A DNA stretch of 64,000 nt from Haloplanus rubicundus (GTDB lineage Archaea > Halobacteriota > Halobacteria > Halobacteriales > Haloferacaceae), in NCBI RefSeq assembly GCF_003342675.1, contig NZ_CP031148.1, forward strand, positions 2,604,001 to 2,668,000, given 5' to 3'. The position numbers were made by a program, and so were the translations under genes. Positions 14,599-27,174 of this stretch are shown here, piece after piece; positions within the stretch are counted from its first letter, which is position 1; each line of letters starts with the position of its first letter. Under the pieces are notes generated by a model. That model did no database searches. It saw only the letters and a list, made by a program, of their open reading frames with translations, and was not told where the DNA came from.

Positions 14599-17073
14599 TC
14601 ACTCCTCGACGACGATCATTCCCTCCATGCCCGCCGCCTCGTGCGGGACGCAGAAGTAGGCGTGTTCGCCGGTCGTCTCGAAGGTGTGGACGTACGACTG
14701 GCCCTCTTGTACGGCGCCCTCGCCGTTCTCCCAGCCGGACCGGGCGGCCTCCTCGGACTCGAAGCCGCCCGAGGCCCAGTAGGTCGCGCCCTCGGGAATC
14801 CCGTCCTCGTAGGCGACGACGTTGTGGGGTTCGCCAGCGGCCCACTCCCACGCCACCGTGTCGCCGACGGAGACGGTGAGTTCCGCCGGCTCGAATGCGA
14901 CGGCCTGCATGCTGACGACGTGGTCGGCGTCGTCGGGCACGCCCTCGACGACGTTCGGGCCACCCGATAGCTCGGGGTCCTCGCCGCTACCGCTGCCACC
15001 GCCGCCCATCGACATCGCGGGCGCGTCGTCCGCGGCGCCGGCGACGGCGAAGGCCGCGTTCCGGGTCGCTTGTGCGTACCGCTCGGCGGCCGCGTCCACG
15101 TCCGCGCCGCTCTCCAGTGCAGAGACGTAGTCCGAGAGCGCGGACTCGAAGGCCTCGTAGAACTCCCGGTCGCCCGCCTCGACGGCCTCGTGGACGCGAG
15201 CGTTCTCGAAGGTCGCGAACACCGCGCTCACCAGTGGCGCAGCGTTCACGTCGCCGCCGGAGCTACCGTTCTCGACGATGGCGTAGACGGCCGCGGTCGC
15301 CTCGTCCGCGAACGTCGTCGCGGCGCCGTAGGCGTCGGCCGAGCCGGTCGTCGCCGATCGGAGGGCGCCGAGCGCCTCCTCGAAGGAAGCGTAGCGCTCC
15401 TCGCTGGCGTCCTCGACAGCCTCGTGGAAGCCGTTGGCGCCGGCCTCGAAGTAGGCGAAGGCGTCGCTCGCGACCGTCTCGGCGCGGTCGGTCGCGCCGG
15501 CCGTCGAGAGGGCGCCCGCGTCGCCAGCGCGACCGGTCACGTAGCCCGCGGCGGCAGCGCTCGCGACGGCCGTCGATCCGGCCATCGCCTCGTACTCGAT
15601 CAGCGCGTCCATCGCGCCGGTGACGTGGGTTGCTACCGCCTCGTCGTCGCCGTTCCGGAAGGCGTCGGGCAGGGCCGCCAGGTGGTCCTCCTCGAAGGTG
15701 TGATAGAGGTCCTCGCTTGTCTCCTCCAGGGACTCGTGGAAGCCGGACTGGTTCTCCTCGAACAGGGCGAAGAGGTCCTCCGCGATGGTCGCGGCGACCT
15801 CGCCCTCGCCCAGCAGGTAGCGCTCGTGGGCGTCGCCGAGGCGGGCACGGAAGAAGCCGGACTGGAGGATGGCCGCGTTCTGGCCGGCCAGCGCGTCGAT
15901 GCCCGTCGTGAGACCGCCGTGGACGGTCGCCACGGCGTCGTCGACGCCGGCGTCGTCGCCGTCCTCGATGGCCGTGACGAGGGCTTCGAGCCCCTCGTGT
16001 TCGAACTGCCCGTACGCCTCCTCGCTGGCCTCCTCCAGGGCCTCGTGGGCGCGGGCGCCCTCGAAGTGCTGGAAGATGGACTGGGCGGCCGCCTTCGCGG
16101 CCTCGGCCTGCCCGGCGTCGTAGAGCCACTGGGCGTCGCGGACGCGGATACGGTAGCCGTTGAGACCGGCGGCGTGGGCGACGCCTAGGCCGGGGCCACC
16201 CATGCCCGCGGCCATCTCGGCGTCGAAGCCGACCGCACCCATCAGGGAGAGGTGGGCGACTCCCGCGATGGCCTCGGACGTGAGTTCGTAGGCCGCGTCG
16301 ACGGCGCCCTGCGACGAGGCTAGGGCGGCCTCGTGGACCGCCTCGGCGTCGCCGGACTGAGCCGCGGAGACGACCTCTTCCATGCCGCCCTCGAAGGCCT
16401 CGTAGTACTCCTCACCGGCGGACTCGATGGTGTCGTGAACGGCCGCTCCCTCGAAGTCGGCGAAGACCTCCTGACCGACCGTCGCCGCCGCGTCGGTCAG
16501 GCCGGCAGTCGCGAGGGCGTCCACGTCGCGGACGCGGGCGGCGAAAGTCATGATCGTGAACACCTCGGCCACGTCGGTCGACGTGCGGCCGCGCTGGGCC
16601 GAGAGCAGGTTCGTCTCCGCTTCCGCGAGGGCGTCCATCGCGTCCTCGGCCGAGCCCTCCTCCAAGCCGGTGCGGGCCGCGCCAAGGTGTTCCTCGAAGG
16701 ACTCGTAGGCCGACTCGCTGGTCGACTCCAGTCCCTCGTGGGCACCCCACTCACCGCCGGCGTTCTCGAAGCGAGCGAACACGTCGCCGACGAGGCTCGC
16801 CGCCGCCGCGTGCTGTCCCGTGTGGCCGAGCGCCATCGCGTCGTGAAGACGGGCGCGCATCACGTTCCACTGGGCGGCGAGCGCCGTCGCTGCGGACGCC
16901 TCGGCCGTCGGCGTCTCCGTCGCAGTCGGTTCGGCGGTGTCCGTCGCCGTCTCGGTGTCCGTCGCCGTCGACTCGTTCGCATCGGTTCCGCTCTGGCCAC
17001 CACAACCGGCCAGCCCGACGCCGCCGAGGGCGACGCCGGTGGTCTGTAGTAACCGTCGTCTGGTTTGCCGCAT
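14599..17073 (-). CDS. large surface lipoprotein: six helical repeats plus C-terminal cupredoxin (DUF5059-type)
   Basis: This 824-residue protein has a twin-arginine signal (TRRRLLQTTG) with lipobox Cys24 and a Thr/Glu-rich linker. Six degenerate helical repeats follow, each with a core of Phe-x-x-Phe-Glu, then a His-(Glu/Asp)-x-x-Glu motif, then a Tyr-x-x-Phe-Glu. After an acidic Gly/Ser linker comes a C-terminal blue-copper domain with ligands His (GEPHN), Cys and His (YFCVPHE) and Met (AGMEGM). Two perfect DtxR-type palindromes lie at its promoter, so iron-dependent repression is likely. HxxxE repeats combined with a cupredoxin recall EfeO-type iron-uptake proteins. A role in surface iron capture or oxidation is inference. 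Confidence 0.88.
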   Translation of the reverse strand: MRQTRRRLLQTTGVALGGVGLAGCGGQSGTDANESTATDTETATDTAEPTATETPTAEASAATALAAQWNVMRARLHDAMALGHTGQHAAAASLVGDVFARFENAGGEWGAHEGLESTSESAYESFEEHLGAARTGLEEGSAEDAMDALAEAETNLLSAQRGRTSTDVAEVFTIMTFAARVRDVDALATAGLTDAAATVGQEVFADFEGAAVHDTIESAGEEYYEAFEGGMEEVVSAAQSGDAEAVHEAALASSQGAVDAAYELTSEAIAGVAHLSLMGAVGFDAEMAAGMGGPGLGVAHAAGLNGYRIRVRDAQWLYDAGQAEAAKAAAQSIFQHFEGARAHEALEEASEEAYGQFEHEGLEALVTAIEDGDDAGVDDAVATVHGGLTTGIDALAGQNAAILQSGFFRARLGDAHERYLLGEGEVAATIAEDLFALFEENQSGFHESLEETSEDLYHTFEEDHLAALPDAFRNGDDEAVATHVTGAMDALIEYEAMAGSTAVASAAAAGYVTGRAGDAGALSTAGATDRAETVASDAFAYFEAGANGFHEAVEDASEERYASFEEALGALRSATTGSADAYGAATTFADEATAAVYAIVENGSSGGDVNAAPLVSAVFATFENARVHEAVEAGDREFYEAFESALSDYVSALESGADVDAAAERYAQATRNAAFAVAGAADDAPAMSMGGGGSGSGEDPELSGGPNVVEGVPDDADHVVSMQAVAFEPAELTVSVGDTVAWEWAAGEPHNVVAYEDGIPEGATYWASGGFESEEAARSGWENGEGAVQEGQSYVHTFETTGEHAYFCVPHEAAGMEGMIVVEE

Positions 17074-17075
17074 AT

Positions 17076-17095
17076 TTTTTAGGCTAGCCTAAAAA
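17076..17095. promoter_or_regulatory. DtxR-type operator 1 (perfect palindrome) at the lipoprotein start
   Basis: TTTTTAGGCTAGCCTAAAAA is a perfect 20-base palindrome ending two bases before ATG 17073 on the minus strand. The core TTAGGCTAGCCTAA matches the known DtxR/IdeR consensus (TTAGGTTAGCCTAACCTAA-like half sites). It covers the expected transcription start, which fits repression when metal is abundant. Confidence 0.8.
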
Positions 17096-17104
17096 TACAA
17101 AAGC
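17092..17104 (-). promoter_or_regulatory. probable TATA region of the lipoprotein gene
   Basis: The minus strand reads CTTTTGTATTTTT about 25 bases upstream of ATG 17073, between the two operators. Operator 1 overlaps its downstream edge. Confidence 0.45.
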
Positions 17105-17113
17105 CCATCGGAT

Positions 17114-17329: not shown

Positions 17330-17345
17330 TTTAGGTTAACCTAAA
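17330..17345. promoter_or_regulatory. DtxR-type operator 3 (perfect palindrome)
   Basis: TTTAGGTTAACCTAAA is a perfect 16-base palindrome of the same class as operators 1 and 2, with TTAA in place of CTAG at the centre. No start codon follows within reach on the plus strand. On the minus strand it is about 255 bases upstream of the lipoprotein gene. Confidence 0.65.
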
Positions 17346-17365
17346 GGAACAAAAACGCATCGATT

Positions 17366-17381
17366 TTTAGGTTAGCCGAAA
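17366..17381. promoter_or_regulatory. degenerate DtxR-type operator 4
   Basis: TTTAGGTTAGCCGAAA keeps the left half site TTTAGG and most of the right half (CCGAAA for CCTAAA). It lies 20 bases after operator 3 and just beyond the stop codon of the permease gene. Confidence 0.5.
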
Positions 17382-25512: not shown

Positions 25513-25926
25513 ATGCGCAGACGCCGGATGCTCGCGACGTTGGGAGCGGTGGTCGCCACGGGGGGAGCCGGCTGTACCGCCGTCGGCTCTCTGGGCGGCG
25601 TCGACGGCGACGTGGGCATGACCGCGGTGGCGTTCGAACCCGCGACGATCACCGTCGACGCCGGCGAGGAGCTCGTCTGGTACAACAACAGCGCCCGCGC
25701 CCACTCCATCACTGCCTACGAGGGCGGCATCCCGGAGGACGCCGACTACTTCGCCACCGGCGGCTACGACTCCGAGGCCGCCGCCCGGGACGCGTGGGAC
25801 GGCATGCACGGCGCGATCACCAACGGCCAGCGATACGCCCACACTTTCGAGGTGCCCGGCACCTACAACTACTTCTGCATCCCCCACGAGCGCGGCGGGA
25901 TGGTCGGACAGGTCGTCGTCGAATAG
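25513..25926 (+). CDS. halocyanin-type blue copper lipoprotein
   Basis: From ATG 25513 the product is 137 residues: a twin-arginine signal (RRRRMLATLG), lipobox Cys21, and a single cupredoxin domain with ligands His (RAHSI), Cys and His (YFCIPHE) and Met (GGMVG). It is an externally anchored one-electron carrier. It closely resembles the C-terminal domain of the 14.6-17.1 kb lipoprotein, including the insert GYDSEAAARDAW (GFESEEAARSGW there). It is convergent with the histidine kinase gene, with a gap of one base. Confidence 0.9.
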   Translation: MRRRRMLATLGAVVATGGAGCTAVGSLGGVDGDVGMTAVAFEPATITVDAGEELVWYNNSARAHSITAYEGGIPEDADYFATGGYDSEAAARDAWDGMHGAITNGQRYAHTFEVPGTYNYFCIPHERGGMVGQVVVE

Positions 25927-25927
25927 C

Positions 25928-27157
25928 CTACGGGGTCGGCAGTTCGATCACGACGGTCGTCCCGGCGTCGTCGGAGGCCACGTCGATTCGTCCGCTCGAC
26001 GCACGAACGATCCAGTTGGTGAGCCACAGTCCCAGCCCGGTGCTGTGGGTGAGCTGTGTCTCCTCGGCCGTCCGGAGCACCCGCCGCTCGACCGACGGGA
26101 GTCCGGGGCCGTCGTCGGCGATGCGGACCGAGACGCGGCCCTCCTCGGTCGCGGGCGGCGTGAGGTCGACCGCCACGTTCGGACGGGCAGCGTCGTTGTG
26201 TTCGACCGCGTTCTCGAGGACGTCGTCGAAGGCGTTCGGGAGGAGTTCGTGGCCGACGGCGGGCGCCCGGTCCGGAAGCGTGACGCTCACCGACGCCTCG
26301 GGTGCCTCGCGTCGCAGGCGCTCGATGCGGTCGGTCAACACGTCGACCAGGTCGACCGTCACCGTCTCGGTGCGGTCGGCGTCGGCAACCCGTTCGATCC
26401 GACGGGCCGTCTCGCCGAGTTCGACGATGGCGTCCAGCCGGTCGCGAACGACCCCGAGGCTGGGGTCGTCGTCGGGCACGCGCGTCGCGAGGCGGTCGAG
26501 ATGCCCCGCCGCGACGTTCACCTCGTTGCGGATGTTGTGGCGCAACACCCTGTTGAGGACGGCGAGTCGCTGGCGGCGCGCCCGGCGTTCGGTCACGTCG
26601 TGGACGAGAAACGTCGCGCCGTCGATTCGGTCCTCGTCCAGCGGCGCGGCCCAGACCTGCGCGTCGAGCAGCGAGCCGTCGGGTCGCCGAAGCGTCGCCT
26701 CCGCCCCCACGATGGCCTCGCCGTCGCGGAGGCGGCCAAGACACTCCGCCAGCGTGATCGTCCCCTCGTCGTCGGCCCACACGGTCGCGAACGACCGACC
26801 GATCATCGACGAGCGGTCGCGGTCGAACGTGCGCTCGGCCGCCGGATTCCACAGCTGAACGACGCCGTCACCGTCGACCGCACAGATGGCGACCGGTGCC
26901 GCGTCGACGACCGTCGAAAACCGCTCGACCAGCCCCTCGACGGCCGCGGTGAGCACGTCGACCTGCTGCTCGCTGTCCAGATGCCGGTCGAGTGCGTCGA
27001 GCAGTTCGGCGAACATCGTCCGGGAGAGTCCCGCCCGATCCGACACCTCGTCGGCCTCGGCGTAGGCGTCCACGACGACTCGCTGCACCTCGTCGTGTCC
27101 GCGCTGGGTGAGCGCGCGAAACACCGCGCCGGCGACCTGATCCGTGGAGCCGTTCAT
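25928..27157 (-). CDS. PAS-domain sensor histidine kinase under a DtxR-type operator
   Basis: The 409-residue soluble kinase has an N-terminal helical domain (about 1-85), a PAS domain (APVAICAVDGDGVVQLWNPAAE onward, in parts), a dimerisation helix with the phosphorylatable His in LRHNIRNEVNV, and a HATPase domain (LENAVEHND, DDGPGLP, STGLGLWLTNWI). No membrane segment and no receiver domain were found, and no response regulator is adjacent. An operator-like palindrome overlaps the first base of its ATG, so iron-dependent expression is likely. It lies downstream of eS1 but has its own promoter. Confidence 0.9.
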   Translation of the reverse strand: MNGSTDQVAGAVFRALTQRGHDEVQRVVVDAYAEADEVSDRAGLSRTMFAELLDALDRHLDSEQQVDVLTAAVEGLVERFSTVVDAAPVAICAVDGDGVVQLWNPAAERTFDRDRSSMIGRSFATVWADDEGTITLAECLGRLRDGEAIVGAEATLRRPDGSLLDAQVWAAPLDEDRIDGATFLVHDVTERRARRQRLAVLNRVLRHNIRNEVNVAAGHLDRLATRVPDDDPSLGVVRDRLDAIVELGETARRIERVADADRTETVTVDLVDVLTDRIERLRREAPEASVSVTLPDRAPAVGHELLPNAFDDVLENAVEHNDAARPNVAVDLTPPATEEGRVSVRIADDGPGLPSVERRVLRTAEETQLTHSTGLGLWLTNWIVRASSGRIDVASDDAGTTVVIELPTP

Positions 27158-27174
27158 TTTAGGCTGGCCTAAAA
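27157..27174. promoter_or_regulatory. DtxR-type operator at the histidine kinase start
   Basis: TTTTAGGCTGGCCTAAAA has eight-base arms that pair perfectly around a TG centre, with the same half sites as the operators at 17.1 kb. It begins on the A of ATG 27157 and covers the expected start of a leaderless transcript. Confidence 0.75.

Follow-up and report, generated by a model that had tools for sequence, protein, structure and literature searches.

A candidate metal-capture lipoprotein of haloarchaea: conserved His/Glu/Tyr repeats and a type-1 copper domain behind iron-type operators in Haloplanus rubicundus

Introduction

A gene of the haloarchaeon Haloplanus rubicundus encodes a lipoprotein in which a long helical domain with recurring His/Glu motifs is followed by a cupredoxin, which raises the question of what such a protein does at the cell surface and whether it belongs with the bacterial iron-uptake protein EfeO. 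EfeO consists of an N-terminal cupredoxin and an M75 domain with an HxxE motif, and its partners are the FTR1-type permease EfeU and the peroxidase EfeB (PMC9174327, PMC3143127). The gene lies in a window of 64,000 nucleotides (the whole stretch of DNA analysed), and a reading of its letters (the sequence-only reading) had proposed an EfeO-like, iron-controlled protein with six HxxxE repeats.

Gene and protein layout

Open reading frame analysis of the window identified an ORF of 824 aa, the product of which belongs to the family of Haloferax HVO_1228/HcpE (Table 1). Residues 58-690 correspond to Pfam DUF5059 (PF16502), with 732 bits against a curated cut-off of 25 (E 8.5e-220) and the profile aligned over its whole length (positions 1-619 of 619) to residues 64-685. 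In the AlphaFold model built with the family alignment, the mean pLDDT reaches 91.6 in the helical domain and 87.6 over the full chain; residues 1-54 stay below 50 and the linker is disordered. R5, R6, G23 and C24 are invariant in an alignment of 36 sequences, and lipidation of Cys24 is expected from this signal; HcpE is described as a putative Tat lipoprotein (PMC6267482).

Table 1. Features of the DUF5059-cupredoxin locus, with positions in the window and residues of the predicted product
Feature	Residues	Position	Strand	Basis or remark
DUF5059-cupredoxin Tat lipoprotein	1-824	14599..17073	-	Pfam PF16502, PF00127
Twin-arginine signal and lipobox LAGC	1-24	17002..17073	-	R5, R6, G23, C24 invariance
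Thr/Glu/Asp low-complexity linker	25-57	16903..17001	-	low pLDDT, sequence unconserved
Repeat 1; invariant E103, H112, E116, Y123, E127	60-164	16582..16896	-	
Repeat 2; motif degenerating	165-265	16279..16581	-	
Extra helix	267-290	16204..16275	-	AlphaFold helix; short-homolog comparison
Repeat 3; invariant E338, H343, E347, Y354, E358; also H300	294-392	15898..16194	-	
Repeat 4; E439, H446, E450, Y457, E461	396-498	15580..15888	-	
Repeat 5; invariant E543, H550, E554, Y561, E565	499-602	15268..15579	-	
Repeat 6; E623, H628, E632, Y639, E643	603-680	15034..15267	-	
Cupredoxin, plastocyanin/halocyanin type	703-824	14602..14967	-	Pfam, Foldseek, ligand conservation
Proximal operator palindrome TTTAGGCTAGCCTAAA		17078..17093		between TATA region and ATG
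Conserved CGAnnnnnTTTT element between palindromes		17094..17113	-	consensus over 35 loci
Distal operator palindrome TTTAGGCTAGCCTAAA		17114..17129		36 bp upstream of proximal
Second near-identical operator pair, TTTAGGTTAACCTAAA and TTTCGGCTAACCTAAA, starting 17330 and 17366		17330..17381	-	~250 bp further upstream

Promoter and iron-linked neighbourhood

The promoter holds palindromes of the form TTTAGGnnnnCCTAAA about 18 and 54 bp before the ATG, on either side of the TATA region. Between them, a CGA...TTTT element is conserved in the consensus of 35 loci, and the CGAnnnnnTTTT element is likely the BRE/TATA box. At least one copy of the palindrome, with at most one mismatch, was found upstream in 43 of 43 homologs, as against 0.5% of shuffled upstream regions; it is carried by long and short forms of the family alike, and most long forms have two. 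The iron-type operators claimed earlier are borne out by the two palindromes, by the second pair and by this conservation.

The second promoter copy keeps the 36-bp distance between its palindromes and the same CGATGnnnTTTTTGT element, and it is oriented towards the DUF5059 gene. Only a 33-codon GTG ORF lies downstream of it, and the relatives L032 and L033 retain a single extra palindrome at this position; this copy may be a remnant, specify a small RNA or act as a tandem promoter.

Across the Haloplanus genome, 14 sites match the palindrome pattern when up to two mismatches are allowed, four of them upstream of the DUF5059 gene; the reversed control gives 4-5. In the same genome, the palindrome precedes an SBP_bac_6/BPD_transp_1/ABC_tran operon of the ferric ABC type (locus L087), and a palindrome pair lies close to, and upstream of, a DUF7551/DUF7260/Fe_dep_repress/DpsA cluster (L090). 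The ABC operon stands beside the DUF5059 gene in two other genomes and the DUF7551/DUF7260/DtxR/DpsA cluster, or parts of it, in roughly 17. An operator shared with iron-uptake-type genes, as is typical of a DtxR/FerR-type iron regulon, can thus be recognized at the sequence level. The neighbours of the gene are otherwise diverse (107 Pfam families, 72 neighbours) and hold no conserved operon partner, with the exception of a xanthine/uracil permease upstream within the same genus; no conserved permease partner was found beside the DUF5059 gene, which counts against a role in metal capture.

The DpsA cluster itself recurs in haloarchaea, whole or in part, as DUF7551/DUF7552, DUF7260, a short Fe_dep_repress regulator and the ferritin DpsA (L090, L041, L102, L103, L111, L050, L117), and its DUFs appear good candidates for iron homeostasis. 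Elsewhere in the window, a PAS/histidine-kinase protein (25931-27157, minus strand) matches DUF7551 at its N-terminus, and the same palindrome at 27158-27173 abuts the predicted start of its gene. DUF7551 proteins also adjoin the DtxR/DpsA cluster and, in other genomes, DUF5059, and it is possible that the DUF7551 kinase represents an iron-linked sensor family.

Published expression data and distribution

The Haloferax volcanii relative HVO_1228, annotated as halocyanin HcpE (PMC9051519, PMC6267482), has appeared in two expression studies. In an endA knock-down (PMC7714728) it rose by 4.2 log2 alongside siderophore and Fe(III) genes, and in a cas1 strain (PMC9051519) it fell by 2.9 together with iron genes; no discussion of it was found in these two papers. 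From the conserved operators and this co-variation, the DUF5059 gene may well be iron-regulated. HVO_1228 is absent by name from the main text of the H. volcanii iron-starvation proteome (PMC11349517), which is counted against the explanation favoured below.

DUF5059 was found only in Halobacteria, where 99 of the 391 genomes of the class exceed the cut-off; a phylum-wide draw yielded 11 of 295 genomes, all within the same order, and the 62 loci of a genome-contig scan all came from haloarchaeal records. Coupling to siderophore synthesis was considered and rejected: the synthetase IucA/IucC occurs in 37 of 99 genomes with DUF5059 and 71 of 283 without (p 0.03, kinship uncorrected, a weak association), and none was found in the Haloplanus genome itself. 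Since most DUF5059 genomes (62 of 99) lack IucA/IucC, the protein cannot be regarded simply as an accessory to siderophores.

Helical repeats and their conserved residues

The helical domain is built of six helix-bundle repeats of ~100 residues each, which align end to end and follow the signature E..(4-8)..H-[E/D]-x-x-E..x6..Y-x-x-[F]-E. All six His-[Glu/Asp]-x-x-Glu motifs claimed by the sequence-only reading are present in the Haloplanus protein (H112/E116, H213/E217, H343/E347, H446/E450, H550/E554, H628/E632), and the first helix of repeat 6 is held in common with the end of repeat 5. Homologs are ~50% identical overall, yet repeats 1, 3, 4, 5 and 6 keep the Glu/His/Glu/Tyr/Glu set almost without exception across 85 intact homologs (within 87 aligned frames, the outlier frames being those of one broken contig), so that the conservation of His and Glu holds for five repeats. 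The exceptions among the 87 frames are the two frames of the broken contig, a Glu-to-Ala change at 632 in one and gaps at 461 in two. In total, 56 of 633 helical-domain columns show no more than one deviating frame; they include 23 of the 25 columns that make up the motif in the five repeats (hypergeometric ~1e-24, for an extended motif picked partly by eye). The spacing is His-x3-Glu in all five.

Repeat 2 behaves differently: H213 is kept in 51, E217 in 68 and the Tyr in 25 of the 87 frames, and the motif reads EHEYE in 45, EYEYE in 17 and is mixed in the remainder. Because repeat 2 loses the motif, five is the conserved number of motifs, and the alignments define five conserved sites plus a sixth that is decaying. 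Repeat 4 bears two further invariant His residues, H464 and H483, in helices D and E (about 15623-15686, minus strand), possibly a separate sixth site.

The number of repeats is 3 or 6 across the family, and the outer repeats keep the motif. The three-repeat short form (about 500 aa; 8 loci, L052-L058 and L059) resembles a deletion of exactly three repeats, and helix 267-290 of the Haloplanus protein is similar to helix A of the last repeat in this form.

In the AlphaFold model helices A and B of each repeat are followed by the short helix C and, beyond a kink, by helices D and E. In repeat 1, E103 ends helix B, H112 and E116 stand one turn apart in helix C, and Y123 and E127 belong to helix D; His, Glu, Tyr and Glu at i, i+4, i+11 and i+15 would share a single face if the helix were continuous. 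Mean-field covariation was computed from 343 repeats after the motif columns and the outliers had been taken out, at a shallow effective depth of ~121. It recovered the antiparallel A-E register in 14 of 16 top pairs, compared with 2-7 in shuffles, and more weakly the B-D and D-E registers. These registers describe an up-down-up-down bundle in which E103, the neighbour of H112, Y123 and E127 lie at about the same height, and convergence of the His/Glu/Tyr residues on one site is plausible in this model.

The covariation pairs H112-E127 and E116-Y123 of the first two runs, with scores tied at 1.43, were rejected as an artefact of contig L145. This contig, from Haloferax massiliensis, carries a broken or misassembled DUF5059 gene with split frames and a run of N; its frame displaces every invariant column together, and the first C-D and B-C couplings were discarded for that reason.

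Whole-protein Foldseek searches were dominated by plastocyanins; for the helical domain alone, the best matches were strings of bundles from talin, vinculin and alpha-catenin at E 0.02 or worse. Such a rod-like string, together with the invariant R73 and R75 in helix A of repeat 1 and an Arg-x-Arg-x-x-Asp-like sequence in helix A of several repeats, would suit a metal-free network of Glu-Arg-Tyr-His bonds and salt bridges that holds the helix C-D kink in a protein of, for instance, adhesion or signalling. This is the alternative that survives best, and it is nevertheless unlikely: the His, unneeded in such a network, is the invariant residue, and the link to the iron regulon through operators, DtxR/DpsA neighbours and HVO_1228 co-variation is strong.

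The cupredoxin domain

The C-terminal domain matches Copper-bind (PF00127) with 66.7 bits against a cut-off of 21.2 (E 2.7e-18), and Foldseek aligned it with plastocyanins at a TM of up to 0.83 by target length. The type-1 copper ligands H750 and C808-x2-H811-x4-M816 are complete and invariant among the aligned homologs of the six-repeat form, which confirms the blue-copper site of the earlier reading, and from these ligands we infer copper binding and electron transfer. In several three-repeat forms the axial Met is replaced by His or Gln, and a changed redox potential is therefore expected in them. The window also holds a small halocyanin-type lipoprotein of 137 aa (25513-25923, plus strand; Copper-bind E 3.9e-18), which adjoins the kinase gene.

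In algae, plastocyanin and cytochrome c6 substitute for each other. By the same logic the DUF5059 protein could be an iron-sparing electron carrier, the copper of a halocyanin replacing iron carriers at low iron and the helical domain reaching across the S-layer as a spacer or as a rod for docking. The plastocyanin/halocyanin type of the cupredoxin, the halocyanin annotation of HVO_1228 and the rod-like, though never significant, Foldseek likenesses (talin, vinculin) fit this proposal. A spacer has no need of five His/Glu/Tyr residues fixed in five repeats, and the outer repeats hold on to the motif although the repeat number varies (3 or 6), which leaves the proposal a shade less probable than the metal-free network.

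Haem is commonly bound through Tyr and His, and iron-regulated haem binding is frequent in bacteria. The repeat sites might accordingly take haem or copper, for haem iron delivery or copper loading, the latter agreeing with the copper expected in the cupredoxin of the same protein. Carboxylate-rich E/H/E(Y)E sets such as those found here are typical of iron or other hard divalent or trivalent ions, and no haem-uptake neighbour was seen among the neighbours of the DUF5059 gene, so that a haem or copper receptor ranks lower again among the unlikely readings.

Relation to EfeO and FTR1

No match to M75 (PF09375) was found in the Haloplanus protein at E up to 10, and the Pfam scan of 36 homologs lists 25 families, none of them M75. 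Alignment with E. coli EfeO by hhalign gave a probability of 0.2 over a short cupredoxin stretch only, leaving the helical domain unaligned, and imelysin is not among the Foldseek matches listed for this domain. FTR1 is absent from the Haloplanus genome and was found in 0 of 382 haloarchaeal genomes, with the positive controls E. coli, B. subtilis and others detected; M75 above cut-off was likewise found in 0 of 382, and DyP peroxidase (Dyp_perox_N, EfeB-type) is absent from the Haloplanus genome. The co-occurrence with FTR1-type permeases suggested earlier thus fails, and the EfeO-like architecture falls with the lack of M75 homology, the HxxxE instead of HxxE spacing, the reversed domain order and a cupredoxin of another family.

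A true EfeO-type protein, in which a divergent M75/imelysin domain and a cupredoxin work with an FTR1-type permease, is highly improbable in view of all these findings, even though the idea of a cupredoxin and a helical His/Glu domain under iron control is shared and the ligands of M75 site III are likewise Tyr, His, Glu and Glu/Asp (PMC9174327). By its sequence the DUF5059 protein is not an EfeO; by analogy it may be functionally EfeO-like.

Proposed function and mechanism

The reading we prefer, with a probability of about 0.5, is that iron starvation induces a lipid-anchored protein outside the cytoplasm that captures metal, most likely iron, and carries a one-electron copper module. When iron is sufficient, a metal-responsive repressor, likely one of the DtxR/FerR/Idr type, would occupy the two observed TATA-flanking palindromes, and the promoter would be freed when iron is short. 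The Tat pathway, for which the signal is present, would export the folded product, and lipid on Cys24 would anchor it. Each of the five repeats would bring its invariant residues, Glu from the end of helix B, His and Glu from helix C, and Tyr and Glu from helix D, into the same slab of the bundle, a proximity to which covariation points weakly, and would bind one metal ion, most likely iron. The type-1 copper domain might then swap single electrons with the bound iron and a membrane electron chain, setting the oxidation state in which the iron is stored or passed on to ferric-type ABC transporters of the same regulon.

A single type-1 copper passes one electron and cannot reduce O2 alone; therefore, Fe(II) oxidation or Fe(III) reduction would need a partner. 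Multicopper-oxidase-like genes are present elsewhere in the Haloplanus genome, unlinked to the DUF5059 gene. Of the multivalent surface iron protein proposed by the sequence-only reading, the constrained His/Glu repeats, the type-1 copper site, the lipoprotein signal and the iron-starvation context stand, and the kinship with EfeO does not. A wider formulation is more tentative: a redox-linked iron-harvesting surface protein that arose in haloarchaea independently of EfeO/FTR1, with five metal sites on a rod and a copper head, widespread in the class and at work also where siderophore synthesis is missing.

Significance

Already known are the Pfam family DUF5059 and the name HcpE; no description of the repeat structure, the invariant sites or the conserved operator pair was found in the literature searched. 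New here are the repeat anatomy with its invariant sites, the family-wide promoter arrangement, the DtxR/DpsA link and the separation from EfeO. Haloarchaeal iron uptake is poorly known, with FTR1 absent (382 genomes) and IucA/IucC missing in 62 of the 99 DUF5059 genomes; in Halobacterium, according to PMC11349517, iron uptake has been measured and its gene is unassigned. The DUF5059 protein offers a concrete candidate, the residues of which can be mutated in H. volcanii HVO_1228 and in Halobacterium salinarum (L144). If the wider formulation is true, Halobacteria would widely possess an iron-acquisition component of a new class. The candidate would also give a function to a Pfam DUF and an explanation for an odd gene in two transcriptome tables.

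Comparison with known systems

Talin, vinculin and alpha-catenin are strings of bundles like the DUF5059 domain, a likeness of no significance that comes with neither homology nor metal motifs. Halocyanin, plastocyanin and amicyanin share with the C-terminal domain the plastocyanin fold and the H, C-x2-H-x4-M type-1 site, whereas ordinary halocyanins are without the 630-residue helical domain. EfeO/EfeM are extracytoplasmic and iron-regulated, as the DUF5059 protein probably is, and likewise have a helical His/Glu domain, to which EfeO adds a cupredoxin. They differ in the motif, which is GxHxxE (i/i+3) instead of His-x3-Glu (i/i+4), and in having one or two sites instead of five or six; the cupredoxin of EfeO is N-terminal, that of the DUF5059 protein C-terminal (703-824) and of the plastocyanin family, and EfeO works with FTR1 and EfeB, whereas the DUF5059 protein has neither partner. 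The closest counterpart is Haloferax HcpE (HVO_1228; PF16502), which belongs to the same family over 619 positions and has the C-terminal cupredoxin, the Tat lipoprotein signal and iron-linked expression; judged by sequence, the Haloplanus protein is a member of this uncharacterised DUF5059 family and shows no difference from HcpE.
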